A stretch of DNA of 64,000 nucleotides from Dehalogenimonas sp. WBC-2 (lineage in GTDB: Bacteria > Chloroflexota > Dehalococcoidia > Dehalococcoidales > Dehalococcoidaceae), in assembly GCA_001005265.1 (NCBI GenBank), contig CP011392.1, positions 620,001 to 684,000 of the forward strand, read 5' to 3'. Position 1 is the stretch's first letter; each line of letters opens with the position of its first letter. Positions 28,495 to 43,216 of this stretch are shown here, piece after piece. The translations under genes were made by a program, and so were the position numbers. The notes below the pieces were generated by a model. That model was not told the DNA's origin and ran no database searches. It saw only the letters and a list, made by a program, of their open reading frames with translations.

Positions 28495-29253
28495 ATGTTG
28501 ACGCGGCGTATCATACCGTGTCTGGACGTTACCGGTGGACGAGTGGTCAAGGGCCAGAGCTTCCTTAACCTCAGAGATGCCGGCGACCCTGTTATGCTGG
28601 CCCAGTTTTATTACCAGCAAGGTGCCGACGAATTGGCATTTCTGGATATCACGGCGACGGTTGAAAGCCGGAAGACGATGGCTTCCATCATTGCTGAGCT
28701 TTCCGGTAAAGTTTTCATGCCTCTGACTGTCGGCGGTGGTATCCGCACCATCGAGGATATGAGAGAGATGCTTATGTCCGGCGCTGATAAAGTGGCTATC
28801 AATACTTCAGCTGTAGCCCGTCCTGAACTGATCACTGAAGGCGCCATCAAGTTTGGCAGCCAGTGCATTGTGGTGGCTATCGACGCCAAGCGTGCCGGTA
28901 AAGGCAAGTGGATTGTGCGCACCCATTCAGCTACCCAGGAATCCGGTCTTGATGCCGTTGCCTGGGCCAGGAAAGCGGCAGAGATGGGGGCGGGAGAACT
29001 CCTGGTGACCAGTATCGACAGTGATGGTCATAAACAGGGCTACGATAATGAATTGAATCAGGCGATATCGGATTCAGTTTCCGTGCCGCTCATCGCCTCC
29101 GGCGGAGCTGGGACGTTGGAACATTTATATGACGCACTTACCATCGGCAAAGCCGACGCGGTGCTGGCGGCAAGTATTTTTCATTATGGAACATATACCA
29201 TCGAACAAACCAAGGATTATCTATCCCAAAGGGGTATTGCCATCAGGCGCTAA
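28495..29253 (+). CDS. hisF: imidazole glycerol phosphate synthase, cyclase subunit
   Basis: This 252-residue TIM barrel is complete. The catalytic Asp11 lies in [17 protein letters not shown] and the second in [43 protein letters not shown] and [19 protein letters not shown] are the phosphate-binding blocks. It makes imidazole glycerol phosphate and AICAR using ammonia from HisH. Its ATG immediately follows the TAG of the amidotransferase gene. No other his gene is in the window. Confidence 0.96.
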
Positions 29254-29263
29254 GGAGCCAATT

Positions 29264-30769
29264 ATGAGAACACTGGTACCCGCAAAATTTGTGGTTGAGC
29301 GAGACCCAAACAAGTGCATTAAATGTCAGGTCTGCGTCAACCAGTGCAGTTTTGACAGTCACTATTATGATGCTGACGATGACGAAATCCGTTGCCGTGA
29401 CGGCAAATGTGTCGGTTGCCACCGTTGCGTCTTGTTCTGTCCCACCGGCGCTCTGACCGTCAAACGCAACCCGCTTGAATATCGGGAGAATTACGGCTGG
29501 AGTCCGGAATATATTGAGGATATTCAGAAGCAGGCCGAGCAGGGCGGCATGCTTCTTACCGGTATGGGCACTGATAAACCCCACCGCATCTATTGGGACC
29601 ACCTGGTGCTTAACGCCTCTCAGGTAACAAATCCGTCTATTGACCCTTTGAGAGAGCCGATGGAAATGGTGACCTATCTGGGCAGGAAACCAGACAGGGT
29701 GGAAATTGACCCGCTTACCGGTAATCTGACCACCAGAATTGCCCCTCAGGTCAAGCTGGATTTGCCGGTCATGTTTTCGGCTATGAGCTATGGGGCCGTC
29801 AGCCTCAATGTTCAGCAGTCGCTGGCGCGGGCGGCGACTGAAATGGGCACCATGTGGAACACCGGAGAGGGTGGCCTGCATCCGTCCCTGGCTAAATACG
29901 GCAACAATACCATCGTTCAGGTGGCCAGTGGGCGCTTTGGGGTTTACTCTGATTATTTGAAATCCGGGCGCATTGTCGAGATAAAGATTGGTCAGGGTGC
30001 CAAGCCAGGTATCGGTGGTCATTTGCCCGGCGAAAAAGTGTCGGCGGAAGTATCGCTGACCCGGATGATCCCGCAAGGCACTGACGCTTTGTCGCCAGCT
30101 CCGCAGCATGATATTTATTCTATCGAAGACTTGTCACAGCTTATCTATGCCTTAAAAGAGGCCACTAACTATAAAGTGCCGATTTCGGTCAAGATTGCTG
30201 CGGTGCATAACTCGGCGGCTATTGCCTCCGGTATGGTCCGGGCCGGCGCCGACATCATCGTCCTGGACGGCATCCGGGGGGCTACCGGCGCCGCTCCCAA
30301 GGTCATTCGTGACAATGTTGGTATTCCCATCGAACTGGCGCTGGCTTCGGTTGATACCAGATTGCGCGCTGAAGGCATCCGTAACCAGGCATCGCTGGTT
30401 ATTTCGGGCGGCATCCGCTCCTCCGGTGATGTGGCCAAGGCTATCGCACTGGGTGCTGATGCGGTCAATATCGGCACTGCGGCGCTGGTGGCTTTGGGTT
30501 GTCGCGTCTGTCAGCAGTGTCATACCGGCAAATGCGCCTGGGGTCTGTGTACCTCTGATCTTAAACTTACCAAACGAGTGAACCCGGAGATTGGGGCACG
30601 GAGAGCCGCTAACCTCCTTAGAGGCTGGGCGCTGGAGATTAAGGATATGCTTGGCGGCCTGGGCGTTAATGCTCTTGAAAGCTTACGCGGCAACCGGTTG
30701 CATCTCAGAGGTATCGGTCTTAACGAGAAAGAATTGGAGATACTGGGCGTAAGGATGGCAGGTGAGTAG
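29264..30769 (+). CDS. glutamate synthase, FMN-binding domain with N-terminal ferredoxin module
   Basis: From the ATG at 29264 (AAGGAG 7 bases upstream) the protein has 501 residues. Residues about 15-65 hold two 4Fe-4S motifs, CIKCQVCVNQC and CVGCHRCVLFC. The rest is the GltB central TIM barrel: PVMFSAMSYGAVSLNVQQSLARAATEMG, GQGAKPGIGGHLPGEKV, VDGAEGGTG replaced by LDGIRGATGAAP, and the 3Fe-4S-type CRVCQQCHTGKCAWGLC. It reduces the 2-iminoglutarate formed from 2-oxoglutarate and ammonia. Ferredoxin is the probable electron donor. Confidence 0.92.
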   Translation: MRTLVPAKFVVERDPNKCIKCQVCVNQCSFDSHYYDADDDEIRCRDGKCVGCHRCVLFCPTGALTVKRNPLEYRENYGWSPEYIEDIQKQAEQGGMLLTGMGTDKPHRIYWDHLVLNASQVTNPSIDPLREPMEMVTYLGRKPDRVEIDPLTGNLTTRIAPQVKLDLPVMFSAMSYGAVSLNVQQSLARAATEMGTMWNTGEGGLHPSLAKYGNNTIVQVASGRFGVYSDYLKSGRIVEIKIGQGAKPGIGGHLPGEKVSAEVSLTRMIPQGTDALSPAPQHDIYSIEDLSQLIYALKEATNYKVPISVKIAAVHNSAAIASGMVRAGADIIVLDGIRGATGAAPKVIRDNVGIPIELALASVDTRLRAEGIRNQASLVISGGIRSSGDVAKAIALGADAVNIGTAALVALGCRVCQQCHTGKCAWGLCTSDLKLTKRVNPEIGARRAANLLRGWALEIKDMLGGLGVNALESLRGNRLHLRGIGLNEKELEILGVRMAGE

Positions 30770-30770
30770 C

Positions 30771-31535
30771 ATGACTAAAACTTCAACGGCTCCCAAAACT
30801 GTTAAAATTGACACCGCCGGCATTTATTACCGCGACTTGAACATAAGGCTGCGGCAATTGGCCGACGAAGGCGTGGAATGCATCGAGCTTGAAAATGTTT
30901 GCGGCCAGCGCTATATCGCTACCGACTTGTCCCGTCCTATGAACTTCAAAATCACCGGCACGCCGGGTAACGACCTGGGGGCTTTCATGAATGGCTCTCG
31001 GATAGAGGTATTCGGCAATGCCCAAGACTGCATGGCCAATACCATGAACGCCGGCGAAATCATTATTCACGGTCACGCTGGTGACATTTGCGGCATGGCT
31101 GCTCGTGGCGGCAAGATATTTATCCGCGACTACGTCGGCTACCGTGCCGGTATTCATATGAAGGAATATGAGGATAAAAAGCCGGTGCTGGTTATCGGTA
31201 ATACTGGTCAGGATTTTCTGGGTGAATACATGGCCGGAGGCGTTCTGGCGGTGCTCGGTCTCGGTCTTAAGGAAGGTGAGAAGCATAAGGCCAATTTTAT
31301 TGGTACTGGCATCCACGCTGGTGTTATATATATCAGCGGCGACTTTGAACCTTATCAACTGGGTAAAGAAGTGGGTGTGGCTGAACTTGATGACCATGAC
31401 CGTGAAGTTCTGGGTGGTCTGGTGACCGAGTATTGCGGCCACTTTGGGGGTGATGTTGGTCAGATCATGCAACGACCATTCAAGAAGCTCTATCCCAAGT
31501 TCCTGCGCCCTTATGGCCGGATGTATGCTTATTAA
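30771..31535 (+). CDS. glutamate synthase, GXGXG (alpha-subunit C-terminal) domain
   Basis: The 254-residue protein is a right-handed beta-helix of the GXGXG family: MNFKITGTPGNDLGAFMNGS, EIIIHGHAGDICGMAARGGKIFI, VLVIGNTGQDFLGEYMAGGVLAVLGLG. This domain is structural and links the amidotransferase and synthase sites in GltB. The ATG at 30771 has AGGTGAG in front; a GTG at 30762 overlapping the previous gene is an alternative. It is the last structural gene of the operon. Confidence 0.9.
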   Translation: MTKTSTAPKTVKIDTAGIYYRDLNIRLRQLADEGVECIELENVCGQRYIATDLSRPMNFKITGTPGNDLGAFMNGSRIEVFGNAQDCMANTMNAGEIIIHGHAGDICGMAARGGKIFIRDYVGYRAGIHMKEYEDKKPVLVIGNTGQDFLGEYMAGGVLAVLGLGLKEGEKHKANFIGTGIHAGVIYISGDFEPYQLGKEVGVAELDDHDREVLGGLVTEYCGHFGGDVGQIMQRPFKKLYPKFLRPYGRMYAY

Positions 31536-31650: not shown

Positions 31651-32313
31651 TTGTTTAGTATATTGATCCTGGCTGAAGAAACGGACAAAACCCGGGAAAT
31701 TAAAGTCCGATTATCCCGGGAAGGCTATAATTGCGTTCTGGCTCCGGCAGGAGATAACCCCGGGCGTCTGCTGAGTCAATACTCTCCCAGTCTGGTGGTA
31801 CTGGATGTGGCCACCGATGGGGAATGGCCGGATATTCTGGCTGACGTGCATGAAAAAAGGCCGCATCTGATGCTCATGGTATTCAGACACCGGCTGGGTG
31901 AACTCCTTGTTGATGATACTATCGATGATTTTGTGCTTAAGCCTTTTGATGTTGATGAGCTGTTGATCCGTATCCGGCGACAGGCGGTCAAAGCCAACGC
32001 CGCTCCAACCAGCGCAGTTATTACCGCCGGCGAACTGATCATAGATACCGACCGTTGTGAGGTTACCTTGGGGGGCATGGCGGTAGAACTGACCTTCCGC
32101 GAATACGAACTCCTCAAGTTCCTGGCCTCCAACCGCGGCCGTGTATTCAGCAGGGAAGTACTTCTCAATAAAGTCTGGGGTTACGACTATTTCGGCGGCG
32201 ACCGCACGGTGGACGTACATATCCGGCGGCTACGGTCCAAGATTGAAGAGCTTGACCAGGTGTACGTTGAGACGGTACGGAATATCGGCTACCGTTTTAA
32301 ACGGAATATTTAG
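31651..32313 (+). CDS. GlnR-like OmpR-family transcriptional regulator
   Basis: The 220-residue protein starts at a TTG. Its receiver has Asp52 (LVVLDVATDG) and Lys97 (VLKPFD), but the usual Thr/Ser switch position reads MVFRHR and the acidic pair is Glu9-Glu10, so it is partly degenerate. The winged helix (LTFREYELLKFLASNRGRVF, VWGYDYFGGDRTVDVHIRRL and VETVRNIGYRF) matches actinobacterial GlnR almost word for word as I recall it. No kinase gene is adjacent. It follows the glutamate synthase operon and precedes glnN and amtB-glnK. Sites fitting a GlnR box occur upstream of three nitrogen loci in the window. Confidence 0.75.
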   Translation: MFSILILAEETDKTREIKVRLSREGYNCVLAPAGDNPGRLLSQYSPSLVVLDVATDGEWPDILADVHEKRPHLMLMVFRHRLGELLVDDTIDDFVLKPFDVDELLIRIRRQAVKANAAPTSAVITAGELIIDTDRCEVTLGGMAVELTFREYELLKFLASNRGRVFSREVLLNKVWGYDYFGGDRTVDVHIRRLRSKIEELDQVYVETVRNIGYRFKRNI

Positions 32314-32570: not shown

Positions 32571-34682
32571 TTAGAAATTGAATAACAATTTAGTGTAGCT
32601 CGGCATCGGCCAGTAATCGGCATCAACAACGGTTTCCAGCATGTCTGCATCCTGGCGCAACTCGCCCATTGCCGTGAAGACAAGGTCGCGATAGGCAACG
32701 GCCTGGGCTTTTGTATCGCCGTGCAGATGGGCTGAGGTTTTGATCGCCTTCTCAAGTTTTGCCAGGTTGGCGCTGAATGATTTCATGGAGTCGCTGATCT
32801 GGCCGAACAAGGCTTTCTCTACATCGGTGTTACCATCTATAGCTTCGACACTGCTGATGGAGGATGCCAGGTCAGCTCTGTAGCCGATAACGGCGGGCAG
32901 GATCTGGCGTTTGGACATCTCAACCATGGTCAAGGCTTCGATGTTGATAGTCTTGATATAGATTTCATATTGGATTTCGCTGCGGGATTCCATTTCGACG
33001 CGGGAAAAGACGCCGTGTTTTTCCATCAGGGCGATGTTCTTTTCGGCGCGGAGGACCGCGATGGCATCGACAGTGGTGCGGATGTTGGGCAGGCCGCGTT
33101 TCTCAGCCTCAACGACCCATTCCTCAGCATAGTTGTTGCCGTTGAAGATGACCCGCTTGTGCTTCTTGATGACCTCAAAGATGATGGCGCCGATCTCTTT
33201 CTGGACGTCGTCGGCCTTTTCAAGCCTGTCGGCGAACTGGTTGAGGCTCTCGGCGACGATGGTGTTAAGGCTGAAGTTAGCCTGGGCAATCGACTGCATT
33301 GAACCGACCATGCGGAACTCGAACTTGTTGCCGGTGAAGGCAAAGGGCGAGGTGCGGTTTCGGTCGGTGGCGTCCTTGGGCAGATTCGGCAAAGACGTGG
33401 TGCCCAGGTTCATGATGCCACCGGACTTGCTCTTGGTGGCACCACCGGCCTCAATCTGGTTGAGGATATCGGTCAACTGTTCGCCGAGGAAAATGGAGAT
33501 AATCGCAGGGGGAGCCTCGTTGGCGCCGAGACGGTGATCATTGCCCGGGCTGGCGGCGGAGACGCGCAGTAAGTCGGCATAATCATCGATGGCCTGGATG
33601 ACGGCGCTCAAGAAAACAAGGAACTGTAAGTTTTCATGCGGGTCCTTACCGGGATCAAGCAGATTTTGCCCTTCATTGGTGGACATGGACCAGTTATTGT
33701 GCTTGCCGGAGCCGTTGATACCGGCAAAAGGCTTTTCATGGAGCAGGCAGACGAGTCCGTGGCGCAGTGCCACTTTCTTCATCGTCTCCATGGTCAGCTG
33801 ATTGTGGTCGGTGGCGATGTTGGTGGTGGTGAAGATCGGGGCTAGTTCATGCTGCGCCGGCGCAACCTCGTTATGCTTGGTCTTGGCGGCTACGCCCAGC
33901 TTCCACAGTTCTCTATCCAGTTCCGACATGAAAGACGCGATCCGGTCCTTGATGTTGCCGAAGTAATGGTCTTCCAATTCCTGTCCCTTGGGAGGTTTGG
34001 CACCGAACAGGGTCCGGCCGGTAAGAATCAGATCTTCGCGCAGGTCGAACATCTTTTTGTCGATGAGGAAATACTCCTGCTCGGGGCCGACGGTGGTGGT
34101 GACCCGCTTGACCGTTTTATTGCCAAGAACTCGAAGTACCCGGAGTGCATGACGGTTCAGAGCGTCCATTGAGCGTAGTAATGGGGTCTTCTTATCCAGG
34201 GCTTCACCGGTATAGGATGCGAAGGCGGTGGGGATGCACAGCGTGCCGTCCTTGACGAAAGCCGGAGAAGTGCAGTCCCAGGCGGTGTAGCCGCGGGCTT
34301 CGAAGGTGGCGCGCAGGCCGCCGGAAGGGAAAGAGGAGGCATCCGGTTCTCCCTTGATGAGTTCCTTGCCGGAGAACTCCATGATCATGCGTCCGTCAGG
34401 GGTAGGCGCAATGAAAGAGTCATGTTTTTCCGCGGTGATGCCGGTCATGGGCTGGAACCAGTGAGTGAAATGGCTGGCGCCTTTGTCGATTGCCCAGTCT
34501 TTCATTACCGAGGCCACCACTTCCGCAACCTGCGGATCAAGAGGGGATGCGTCCTCTATTGTCTGCCTCAAGGATTTGTAGATCTCTTTCGGCAACATCT
34601 GGCGCATGACAGAGTCATTGAAGACGTTACTTCCATAGATATCGACCAGGGAAACCGTCTCTTTTCCGTTTGGATGGTGCAT
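32571..34682 (-). CDS. glnN: glutamine synthetase type III
   Basis: The 703-residue protein has the size and blocks of GSIII. The N-terminus is [34 protein letters not shown] and [23 protein letters not shown] follow, then [11 protein letters not shown] (metal ligands), [12 protein letters not shown], and [16 protein letters not shown] (ATP/glutamate region). It forms glutamine from glutamate, ammonia and ATP. It is one of three glutamine synthetases in this window. GAGGAG precedes the ATG. No convincing GlnR-like array was found upstream of it. Confidence 0.96.
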
Positions 34683-34973: not shown

Positions 34974-35384
34974 CTATTTCGAAGATTTATTTTTAATGGT
35001 GCCTTTTGTCTTGCCTGCCTTCAACTTGGCGCTGTTATAATTAACCGTAGATTGGATGAGCATCTTTAGTGAGTTCTCATTTATCTTGTCGTCTTTGTAG
35101 ATATCGATAGCCCGCCACTGCTTGCCGCCCAATTCAGCATTGAAGATTTTGTTTGGATCTGAAAGGCTGGCTCCATTGGGAAAGGTTATCTTTACCTTGT
35201 CTTTAAAGGCCTTGGCTAAACAGACTATTCCATTGTGAGACCAGACAGGAGTTCCCATCCATTTCAATTCCTCTATTATCTCGGAATCGGCATCATGGAT
35301 AATCCTTCTGATGCTGGCAAACATGATGCCGCGCCAATCAGCAAGATTTGCGATGATATCGTCAATAATTAGACTTGCGTTCAT
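34974..35384 (-). CDS. DUF1801 family protein
   Basis: This 136-residue soluble protein matches the YdhG/DUF1801 pattern: IDDIIANLADWRGIMFASIR near the N-terminus, then EIIEELKWMGTPVWSHNGIVCLAKAFKDKVKITFPNGASL with its conserved Trp, and LGGKQWRAIDIY. The C-terminus is Lys/Ser-rich. The function of the family is not established. It sits alone between glnN and amtB. Confidence 0.8.
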   Translation of the reverse strand: MNASLIIDDIIANLADWRGIMFASIRRIIHDADSEIIEELKWMGTPVWSHNGIVCLAKAFKDKVKITFPNGASLSDPNKIFNAELGGKQWRAIDIYKDDKINENSLKMLIQSTVNYNSAKLKAGKTKGTIKNKSSK

Positions 35385-35636: not shown

Positions 35637-35724
35637 GTAATATAACCGAAATATAATGGTAACATCCATGTAACATCAGTGTAATCGGCAGGTAATAACC
35701 AGTTGTTAAACTAGTGTTAATAAT
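35637..35724 (+). promoter_or_regulatory. GlnR-like operator array upstream of amtB
   Basis: Six half-sites begin exactly 11 bases apart: GTAAT 35637, GAAAT 35648, GTAAC 35659, GTAAC 35670, GTAAT 35681, GTAAT 35692. Two related TGTTAA sequences continue the grid at 35704 and 35715. The geometry (5-base core, 6-base spacer) and cores equal the actinobacterial GlnR box gTnAC-n6-GaAAC. The array ends about 20 bases before the amtB start, so the transcription start must lie close to its downstream end or inside it. An in-grid TATAAT lies at 35652-35657. Confidence 0.7.
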
Positions 35725-35744: not shown

Positions 35745-36950
35745 TTGGATACAGGTGATACGGCCTGGATTCTCGTCTCTACTGCCTTGGTGATGTTGAT
35801 GACACCCGGAGTAGCCTTGTTCTACGGCGGCATGGTACGCAAAAAGAACCTCATCTCTACACTGATGATGAGTTTTGCCGTGCTGGCACTAGTCTCAATT
35901 CTGTGGGTGGTCTTTGGTTACACACTGAGCTTTGGTCCGGATGTGGCCGGTTTTATCGGCGGACTTGATTTCCTGGGACTTAAAGATGTGGGTATGGAAG
36001 CCACCAGCACTACCATTCCTGATCTACTCTTTATGATGTTCCAGGGCATGTTTGCTATTATCACCGTGGCGCTCATTACCGGCGCGGTGGTGGAACGTAT
36101 AAAATTCAGCACACTATTGGTTTTTGCCATTCTGTGGCTCGGTCTTATATACGGACCGGTGGCACACTGGGTGTGGGGCGGCGGCTGGCTGAGTGAGCTG
36201 GGGGCGCTGGATTTTGCCGGCGGCACCGTAGTTCATATCAACGCCGGTGTTTCAGCGGCGGCGCTGGTTACCATCCTTGGCTCTCGCAAAGGATTTGGCA
36301 AAGAGTCAATGGAACCTAACAACATTCCTATGGTCATGCTGGGTGCGGCTCTGCTGTGGTTCGGCTGGTTCGGCTTCAATGCCGGTAGCGCTCTGGGAGC
36401 CAACGGCGGCGCTGCCAACGCCTTTGTCACTACAAACACTGCGGCGGCCGCAGCAGCCTTGGTGTGGATCCTTCTTTCATGGAGAACGCGCAAGCCTACT
36501 CTGCTCGGGGCTGTCACCGGCGCGGTGGCTGGACTGGTGGCCATTACTCCGGCAGCGGGTTTCGTAACCCCGATGGCAGCAATCGCTATCGGCGCAGTTG
36601 CCGCTCTGGTTTGCTACTGGGCAATGAGCTTCAAAGCTAAAAAGGGATTCGATGATTCACTTGACGTCATGTCGGTTCACGGTGTCGGCGGTATCTGGGG
36701 CGCTTTGGCTACCGGTATCTTCGCCACTGCCGCGATAGGCGGCGCTGACGGAGCCTTGTTCGGTAATGTGGAACAACTTGGGATCCAGGCCATAGCAGTG
36801 GCGGCAGTAGCTGCTTACGCCTTCTGCGGTACCTGGATTATTGGCAAGGTACTGGACAAGACGATGGGTCTGCGGGTCAAGGAAACTGAGGAAGTTGTCG
36901 GTCTTGACATCTCACAACACGGTGAACGCGCTTACGGAGGTATCAGGTAG
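35745..36950 (+). CDS. amtB: ammonium transporter
   Basis: The 401-residue protein starts at a TTG behind AAAGGGAGGTG. It has 11 membrane helices with the Amt signatures: WILVSTALVMLMTPGVALFYGGMVRKKN, VHINAGVSAAALVTILG (first pore histidine), MVMLGAALLWFGWFGFNAGSAL, and DVMSVHGVGGIWGALATGIFA (second pore histidine). It conducts ammonium across the membrane. The PII gene follows with no gap (stop TAG, then ATG), the classical amtB-glnK pair in which PII blocks the channel under nitrogen excess. Confidence 0.96.
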   Translation: MDTGDTAWILVSTALVMLMTPGVALFYGGMVRKKNLISTLMMSFAVLALVSILWVVFGYTLSFGPDVAGFIGGLDFLGLKDVGMEATSTTIPDLLFMMFQGMFAIITVALITGAVVERIKFSTLLVFAILWLGLIYGPVAHWVWGGGWLSELGALDFAGGTVVHINAGVSAAALVTILGSRKGFGKESMEPNNIPMVMLGAALLWFGWFGFNAGSALGANGGAANAFVTTNTAAAAAALVWILLSWRTRKPTLLGAVTGAVAGLVAITPAAGFVTPMAAIAIGAVAALVCYWAMSFKAKKGFDDSLDVMSVHGVGGIWGALATGIFATAAIGGADGALFGNVEQLGIQAIAVAAVAAYAFCGTWIIGKVLDKTMGLRVKETEEVVGLDISQHGERAYGGIR

Positions 36951-37289
36951 ATGAAAAAGATTGAAGCTATCATCCGTGAGGAACGGCTGGACGCGGTCAA
37001 GAAAGCCCTTGAGGAAAAAGGACTGGTTGGCATGACCGTCACTGAGGTGTCAGGTCGCGGCCAGCAGAAGGGCATTCCTCTTCAGTGGCGGGTTGGAGAG
37101 TACCGGGTGGACTTCCTGCCCAAACTGAAAGTTGAAATGATCTGCCATGACGATGATTGCAGCGTAGCGGTGGAGGCCATCATGAAGGCGGCCAAGACCG
37201 GACGTATCGGCGACGGCAAGATATTTGTCATGCCGGTGGATGCGGCTTACCGCATCCGCACCGGAGAGACCGGAGAATCAGTAGTTTAA
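36951..37289 (+). CDS. glnK: nitrogen regulatory PII protein
   Basis: The 112-residue protein is complete: MKKIEAIIREERLDAVKKAL, the Walker-like GRGQQKG ahead of the T-loop, and a T-loop reading IPLQWRVGEYRVDFLPK with the uridylylatable Tyr position kept. The C-terminal signature is TGRIGDGKIFVMPVDAAYRIRTGETGE. It should bind ATP/ADP and 2-oxoglutarate and gate AmtB. A fragment of a second PII gene lies at 43225-43380. Confidence 0.96.
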   Translation: MKKIEAIIREERLDAVKKALEEKGLVGMTVTEVSGRGQQKGIPLQWRVGEYRVDFLPKLKVEMICHDDDCSVAVEAIMKAAKTGRIGDGKIFVMPVDAAYRIRTGETGESVV

Positions 37290-41680: not shown

Positions 41681-43117
41681 CTAGATATCAAAGTACATAT
41701 GGAATTCCCACGGATGCGGCCGGAGGCGGATAGCATCCACTTCCTGTGTCCGCTTATAGTTTATCCATACATCAATGACATCCTTGGTGAAAACATTGCC
41801 TTTTAGAAGGAAGTCATGATCTTTCTCTAAAGCGTCCAAGGCGGCTTCAAGAGAAGATGGGACGGTTCGTATTTTGGCGGCCTGAGATTTGGGCAGATCG
41901 TACAGGTTCATATCCATTGGTTTGCCGGGATTTATCTTGTTCTGGATACCATCCAGGCCTGCCATCAGCATTGCCGCCATAGCCATATAGCCGTTAGCAG
42001 TGTTGTCCGGGCAGCGGAATTCCAGACGTTTGGACTTGGGGTTAGAGTTGTACATCGGGATACGGACCGATGCAGAGCGGTTGCGGGCAGAATAGACCAG
42101 ATTGACCGGAGCTTCATACCCGGGCACCAGGCGCTTGTAAGAGTTGGTAGTGGGGGCGCAGATGGCCATCAAAGCGTCAGCGTGCTTCAAGAGGCCGCCG
42201 ATGTAGTGAATAGCGGTTTCACTAAGGAGCGCGTAGCCATCTTTGTCAAAGAATAGATTTGTACCATTTTTCCAGAGGGACTGGTGAACGTGCATGCCGG
42301 AACCGTTATCTTTGAATAGGGGTTTTGGCATGAAAGTGGCTACTTTGCCCTCTTTTTTGCACATATTCTTAACGATGTATTTGTACCATTGCATCTGATC
42401 GGCCATCTTGACCATTGGCCCAAAGCGCATGTCAATCTCGCATTGACCGGCGGTGGCGACCTCATGATGATGAACCTCAACGGGAATCCCGGTTTCCATC
42501 ATCTTGAGGATGATGCGGCTACGGAGGTCCTGCAGCGAATCAAGTGGAGGTACGGGGAAATAACCTTCTTTGTAGCGCGGTTTGTAGCCTAGATTATGAG
42601 AATTACCATCATTGTCAGAGTTTTCGACACGGGCAGTATTCCAAGAACCTTCAACCGAATCCACGTTGTAATAGGCAGTGTGCTCGTTTTGTTCAAACTG
42701 TACGTTGTCAAAAATGAAGAATTCCATCTCGGGACCCCAATAGCTGACATCGGCGATGCCGCTGCTCTTGAGGTAGCCTTCAGCCTTCTTGGCAATGAAA
42801 CGCGGGTCACGTGAGTATGGTTTACCTGAAGTGGGGTCAAAAATATCGCAGATGATGGATAAAGTGGGTACTTCCAACATCGGATCGAAGATGGCTGTGT
42901 CGGGGTCTGGCATAAGGAGCATGTCGCTCTCATTGATAGCCTGAAAACCCCGGATGGAAGAACCATCGAAGCCGATGCCTTCCGACCAGATATCATCACC
43001 TAGTTCGGTTACCGGGATGGAAAAATGCTGCCAAAGACCAGGTAGATCATTGAATTTGAAATCGACGATCTGGATGCCTTTTTCTTTGCAATACTGATCA
43101 ATTTCTGCTGGTTTCAA
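41681..43117 (-). CDS. glnA: glutamine synthetase type I (478 residues)
   Basis: The protein begins [30 protein letters not shown]. It has [68 protein letters not shown] and [10 protein letters not shown], all GSI blocks. NLYDLP near residue 406 keeps the tyrosine that is adenylylated in GSI-beta enzymes. Length also fits GSI-beta. The start is a TTG after GAGAGGAGA. A GlnR-like array lies about 60-90 bases upstream, and a PII remnant lies beyond that in the same direction, suggesting an ancestral glnB-glnA unit. Confidence 0.95.
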
Positions 43118-43178
43118 GGTATCTCCTCTCTCTTGCCGCTACCGGCCGGATATTTTCACTACATTTTACCTGATAAAT

Positions 43179-43216
43179 ATTTCTAATAAATTACGTTTTT
43201 GTTTCGACTGGTTATA
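43179..43216 (-). promoter_or_regulatory. GlnR-like box upstream of glnA
   Basis: On the minus strand, reading toward glnA: TATAA (43216-43212), GAAAC (43205-43201), GTAAT (43194-43190), GAAAT (43183-43179), each 11 bases apart. The GAAAC-n6-GTAAT-n6-GAAAT part follows the alternating a/b half-site order of actinobacterial GlnR sites. The first element is weak. Confidence 0.6.

Follow-up and report, generated by a model that had tools for sequence, protein, structure and literature searches.

A putative GlnR-type operator on a -35-less promoter upstream of amtB in Dehalogenimonas sp. WBC-2 and its conservation in Dehalococcoidia

The stretch of DNA analyzed here (referred to as the window) comprises 64 kb of the Dehalogenimonas sp. 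WBC-2 genome and contains the amtB-glnK genes, preceded by an array of short direct repeats, as well as two glutamine synthetase genes, glutamate synthase (GOGAT) genes, and a gene for a regulator of the OmpR family, which is proposed to bind the array. The features are listed in Table 1. The DUF1801 gene, which lies on the other side of the amtB leader, showed no sign of belonging to a nitrogen circuit.

Table 1. Genes and regulatory features of the window, with positions in the window
Feature	Position	Strand	Remarks
Archaeal-type glutamate synthase genes (FMN domain, GXGXG domain)	29243..31535	+	Immediately upstream of the regulator gene
glnR-like orphan regulator gene, OmpR family, degenerate receiver	31651..32313	+	Proposed to bind the array
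glnN-type glutamine synthetase gene	32571..34682	-	Between regulator gene and amtB; no array here
DUF1801 gene	34974-35384	-	Divergent from amtB; in the window
Six GlnR-type half-sites, strict 11-bp period	35637..35696	+	Spans about -82 to -23, counted from the predicted transcription start
Promoter-proximal pair GTAAT-n6-GTAAT	35681..35696	+	Over the -35 region; without a TTGACA-like -35
Extended -10 element TG-T-TAAACT, TGTTAAACT	35704..35712	+	Aligns with the -10 of orthologous promoters
amtB, ammonium transporter, TTG start	35745..36950	+	TIGR00836, 476 bits
glnK, PII signal protein	36951..37289	+	PF00543
glnA, type I glutamine synthetase	41681..43117	-	TIGR00653, 666 bits
-10 element TAAAAT of glnA	43163..43168	-	At +15, counted from the first base of the last half-site; composite motif
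Second array, GAAAC-n6-GTAAT-n6-GAAAT	43179..43205	-	Before glnA; GWAAY scan, composite motif

The six half-sites upstream of amtB start at 35637 (GTAAT), 35648 (GAAAT), 35659 (GTAAC), 35670 (GTAAC), 35681 (GTAAT) and 35692 (GTAAT). When both strands of the 64 kb were scanned for the word GWAAY at periods from 8 to 14, runs of at least three words were found at a period of 11 only, namely the six-word run at 35637 on the forward strand and a three-word run at 43205 on the reverse strand. In 100 dinucleotide-preserving shuffles of the window, three-word runs occurred at a mean of 0.01 per window, and runs of more than three words were absent from all of them. A preliminary description of the locus, made from the sequence alone, had reported six half-sites at 35637-35692, each 11 bp from the next, and all of these coordinates were right. 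It had also taken two TGTTAA words, at 35704 and 35715, to continue the phase of the array, and this part failed. Alignment with orthologous promoters identified these words as the -10 element and its downstream flank, so that a count of eight half-sites was rejected and the number is six.

The -10 hexamer, TAAACT (35707-35712), is preceded by TG, and its first base lies 15 nt downstream of that of the last half-site. From this element, the amtB transcription start is predicted to lie near 35719, and the second TGTTAA word falls around this position. The normal position of a -35 element would be between the last two half-sites of the array.

In order to examine the conservation of this arrangement, amtB leaders were drawn from the genus, the sister genus (inferred, in part from its gene content, to be Dehalococcoides), the order and the class. 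Spacing statistics were obtained from 83 leaders, all from genomes with a close orthologue of the regulator. Half-site pairs at distances of 11, 22 and 33 numbered 133, 81 and 61, versus 0.55, 1.0 and 1.2 in shuffles, and each of the remaining distances from 5 to 35 was represented by 0 to 4 pairs. At least two half-sites in register were found in 74 of the 83 leaders, and the 11-bp periodicity was much stronger on the coding strand. The half-site pattern was retained in G+C-rich genomes of the class, and distant leaders often resembled the actinobacterial consensus, as in genome G174 (GTAAC-n6-GTAAC-n6-GAAAC-n6-GAAAC). Across 196 whole genomes of the class, about 179 triple arrays were counted against 33 matches to reversed-pattern controls (totals of the listed rows), 14 of the latter coming from one genome.

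One alternative explanation is that the periodicity arises by chance or from composition, such as an A+T-rich spacer or curvature, without any dedicated regulator. GTAA words are plentiful in A+T-rich leaders, and phased A-tracts do occur in promoters. However, three-word runs were as rare in dinucleotide-preserving shuffles as stated above, the pattern persists where the genome is rich in G+C, and the period is 11 with a strong preference for the coding strand. Chance and curvature were rejected on the basis of the comparative data and the shuffles, which leave this alternative with virtually no room.

The array is not universal. Some genomes bearing GlnR, for example G122, G154 and G185, had an amtB leader without an array. 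One family (f50) has GlnR-like proteins (E about 1e-57 to 1e-60) without arrays at amtB, and its genomes contain no triple array at all, which indicates that GlnR and the array do not always co-occur. It is possible that the f50 regulator reads another word or acts on other genes. The amtB leaders of f50 genomes (G057, G084, G101, G115, G127, G146 and others) share a different block, GTAACCAG onward. Two array-bearing genomes, G080 and G183, carry divergent GlnR-like proteins. Because of these two groups of genomes, the co-occurrence of GlnR and array was not used as a clean test; a comparison of their presence and absence was dropped, since its apparent match had been produced by a 1e-60 cut-off. 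The amtB leader of G080 (C8:62668-62727), an A+T-rich genome with a very divergent GlnR-like protein, contains six consecutive GAAAC/GAAAT half-sites.

For the position of the array relative to the promoter, 80 leaders containing two or more in-register half-sites were aligned on the last half-site; a few of these came from genomes whose regulator match fell below the cut-off. In 47 of these 80 leaders from the class, the -10 pattern TANNNT began exactly 15 nt downstream of the first base of the last half-site, and none of the other offsets between 5 and 39 was occupied in more than 8. No -35 consensus was seen in the orthologous amtB leaders aligned in this way. The promoters are thus arranged as for a PhoB-type class II activator, where the proximal half-site keeps a fixed distance to the -10 and a -35 element is absent.

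It could be argued that the array is instead a repressor site, and that, under nitrogen-rich conditions, protein bound over -38 to -23 obstructs RNA polymerase. The proximal half-sites do overlap the -35 region, and some genes are repressed by actinobacterial GlnR (PMC4140684). However, the lack of a -35 consensus in the aligned leaders is expected for activator-dependent promoters, and the same geometry activates amtB in Streptomyces (PMC5826061). The same geometry is also known to be activating at phoA. Repression is considered very unlikely.

Further candidate targets of the proposed activator were sought with a composite motif, GWAAY-n6-GWAAY-n10-TANNNT, the reversed pattern serving as a control. 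In the whole source genome (1,725,728 bases in one contig), three matches and no control matches were found, and the next genes were amtB (with glnK), glnA and nifH. Eleven genomes of the family yielded 38 matches versus 7 controls, mostly located before amtB, a second amtB, type I glutamine synthetase genes of two kinds, and glnN.

In the sister genus, glnA is preceded by four half-sites in register, GTAAC-n6-GAAAC-n6-GAAAT-n6-GAAAT, and this Dehalococcoides-like array is essentially equal to the actinobacterial a-b-a-b consensus (PMC10704036). Within the window, no arrays were found before hisF-gltB, glnN or the regulator gene itself. Orthologues of glnN in genomes G004, G005 and G006 have GTAAT-n6-GTAAC and a -10 element in front, and the glutamate synthase operon of the sister genus, which ends beside the regulator gene, opens with GTAAT-n6-GAAAT-n6-GAAAT. 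A three-half-site array was observed at the head of the ferredoxin-hisH-oxidoreductase-GOGAT-hisF operon of the sister genus (L381:6582-7140, minus strand; also in G008 and G009).

Few genomes of the class have the nifH gene (4 of 294), and among eight genomes of the genus it was found in the source genome only; strain WBC-2 has been described as the only Dehalogenimonas carrying nif genes (PMC13390414). The three nifH genomes that encode a close GlnR (the source genome, G000, together with G010 and G099) all carry arrays before nifH, with four half-sites in G099. In the fourth nifH genome, G046, no array was found at nifH, and the best match to the regulator profile was weak. Since no sigma-54 was found in the source genome or in the other genomes of the genus and family tested, control by sigma-54 was rejected, and control of the nif genes by NifA is unlikely.

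The nifH array of the source genome, the third of its composite matches (G000, C1:564098-564129, minus strand, outside the window), consists of GTAAC, a weak TTAAT, GTAAT and GAAAT on an 11-bp grid with TATAAT at +15; a further half-site pair lies more upstream, and nifH and a PII-like gene follow. In G010, a divergent GlnR-like regulator of 239 amino acids, whose receiver lacks the pocket residues, heads a modABC-nifH cluster (L323:6642-7361, minus strand) and has its own three-half-site array. It may be a nif-specific paralogue of GlnR.

The product of the regulator gene at 31651 matched the winged-helix domain PF00486 with 97.5 bits and the receiver domain PF00072 with only 19.7 bits, under the cut-off. 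Its best matches among solved structures were GlnR of Amycolatopsis and Mycobacterium, ahead of RegX3 and MtrA, whether the search used the sequence alone or a profile built from 24 relatives. The entries concerned (8hig, 8hih and 8hml) are named only as OmpR-family or transcriptional regulators, and we take them to be the GlnR entries described in PMC10704036.

A first phylogenetic tree, without outgroups, could not decide the relationship, and 31 canonical OmpR-type regulators from Streptomyces, Micromonospora, Clostridia and Dehalococcoidia were then added as outgroups. The GlnR proteins of Dehalococcoidia and of actinobacteria were split together from all 31 canonical regulators (SH-aLRT 100), and the DNA-binding domain alone gave the same split (SH-aLRT 85). 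The Dehalococcoidia branch was placed beside the actinobacterial clade and not inside it; the two branches may reflect either common ancestry or an old transfer, between which the analysis does not decide. These trees come from quick searches that left many forks unresolved, and the branches on the GlnR side are long. Among the three OmpR-type proteins of the source genome in the tree, only the 31651 product falls on the GlnR side.

The pocket residues of the receiver are D/E-D-D-T-K in every canonical row shown and A-E-D-V-K in the 31651 product. The pocket Thr is missing in every GlnR row from both phyla, including the long-branch nif paralogue, which has unrelated letters at these positions. 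The strict feature of actinobacterial GlnR, a conserved Asp-50 with partners Arg-52 and Thr-9, was not met: the equivalent of Asp-50 is kept in the genus and is Glu, Leu or Asn in other families, and the equivalent of Arg-52 is not conserved. The 31651 protein was therefore placed in the wider GlnR family only. No histidine kinase gene adjoins the regulator gene, whose neighbors are the GOGAT genes and glnN.

In the class, 95 genomes carry the regulator gene as well as amtB, and in 39 of these the regulator gene immediately precedes amtB. In the source genome the two are separated by 3.4 kb that include glnN, and for this reason the gene order of relatives was relied upon rather than adjacency alone. 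The regulator gene follows the glutamate synthase genes both in the window and in the sister genus.

A further alternative is that another regulator of the OmpR/PhoB family, of a phosphate or redox type that uses 11-bp direct repeats, binds the array and that the 31651 product is a bystander. Proteins of this family generally use 11-bp direct repeats, the PhoB box lies at an equal distance from the -10, and the source genome encodes further OmpR-type regulators. Against this, the arrays sit before nitrogen genes, the gene order described above links the regulator to amtB and, in both genera, to GOGAT, none of the other OmpR-type proteins of the genome in the tree joins GlnR, and the half-site is gTnAC/GaAAC and not CTGTCAT. 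This alternative is regarded as very unlikely.

The preliminary description had named the 31651 product as an adjacent regulator of the OmpR family, which is partly correct, since the protein is an OmpR-type member of the GlnR family but its gene is not next to amtB. Its inference that a GlnR-like circuit controls ammonium uptake is supported by comparison, with binding still inferred. It had proposed looking for the 11-bp grid in orthologous amtB leaders and, in related genomes, upstream of glnA, gltB and glnN; the former check was passed across Dehalococcoidia, and in the latter the grid recurred at glnA, glnN and GOGAT, and also at nifH. It had further stated that no described GlnR regulon was known in this class. 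Consistent with this statement, no link between GlnR and Chloroflexota was found in the titles or abstracts of the literature searched, and nitrogen control in Dehalococcoidia therefore appears likely to be undescribed, as far as a search of titles and abstracts can tell.

These analyses establish the array and its conservation, its constant spacing to the -10, which genes lie downstream, and the kinship of the protein. These findings are very probably explained by an activator that is encoded at 31651, belongs to the wider GlnR family and acts on promoters without a -35; binding, activation and the nitrogen signal are inferred. As part of this explanation as a whole, the array is very likely the operator of a GlnR-type nitrogen regulator, for which there are no binding data. 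According to this model, GlnR-like dimers would line up head to tail on the DNA, each 11-bp half-site being bound by one winged-helix domain, and the last two half-sites would stand in for the missing -35, the bound protein recruiting sigma region 4. Such recruitment at the proximal half-sites would turn on amtB-glnK, in the manner of PhoB at phoA and of actinobacterial GlnR at amtB. The proposal that activation replaces the -35 is drawn from the 15-nt spacing, which is that of phoA, from the amtB geometry of Streptomyces and other actinobacteria, and from the GlnR activation complex. The six-site array would be expected to give a strong or prompt response of amtB. The predicted regulon would also take in glnA and nifH, and GOGAT and glnN in relatives. 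Control would be independent of classical phosphorylation, and the signal is inferred to be nitrogen limitation; the sensing step has not been identified.

Dehalococcoidia include organohalide respirers that are used for groundwater clean-up. For these bacteria, the present analysis names a regulator, its operator, the promoter arrangement and a regulon, nitrogenase included, that can be put to the test; it also brings a second phylum into the well-studied actinobacterial GlnR system. Since the two phyla agree in promoter geometry, the rule of a half-site, 15 nt and a -10 could serve as a simple finder of GlnR targets in unannotated genomes. A bolder reading, which in our judgment has equal chances of being right or wrong, is that a GlnR-family switch was ancestral to Actinomycetota and Chloroflexota and not an actinobacterial invention, and that it directly drives the nitrogenase of Chloroflexota without sigma-54 and NifA.

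Several known systems can be compared with the one proposed here. The GlnR of Bacillota, a MerR-family protein that controls nif genes in Paenibacillus (PMC6191146), shares only its name and its nitrogen role and is not the system seen here. It belongs to an unrelated protein family and uses a different kind of operator. The proteobacterial NtrC/NifA system with sigma-54 likewise controls amtB-glnK, glnA and nif genes, whereas the promoters described here have a -10 of the sigma-70 type in genomes in which, where tested, no sigma-54 was found. The PhoB system of E. coli (phoA, pstS) has the same 11-bp direct repeats in place of a -35, and upstream of phoA the proximal GTCAC was confirmed in the sequence to start 15 nt before TATAGT. 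PhoB differs in its half-site, in its canonical, phosphorylation-dependent receiver and in its phosphate genes.

The closest counterpart is the GlnR of actinobacteria (Streptomyces, Amycolatopsis and Mycobacterium), with boxes at amtB-glnK-glnD, glnA, glnII and nasA and the half-site consensus gTnAC-n6-GaAAC (PMC10704036). In its activation complex, four DNA-binding domains are arranged head to tail, and the receiver domains form a tetramer that bridges to RNA polymerase (PMC10704036). The sensing step of actinobacterial GlnR is still largely unknown. The two systems share the OmpR fold, the degenerate receiver, the orphan gene, a near-identical recognition helix (GGxRTVDVHxRRLRxK), and gTnAC/GaAAC half-sites every 11 bp at amtB and glnA. 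Six GlnR sites are also present at Streptomyces amtB, of which a2 lies on the -35 (PMC5826061), and the distance of +15 to the -10 is also shared. In actinobacterial amtB leaders, A and T occupied the -10 positions of the +15 register in 5 of 7 by rule, and other offsets gave at most 1. The Dehalococcoidia system differs in its phylum, in forming a sister branch that is not nested, in a phospho-Asp that is not conserved across the order and an Arg-52 that is not conserved, and in the location of its regulator gene beside GOGAT and amtB, with nif genes among its predicted targets.
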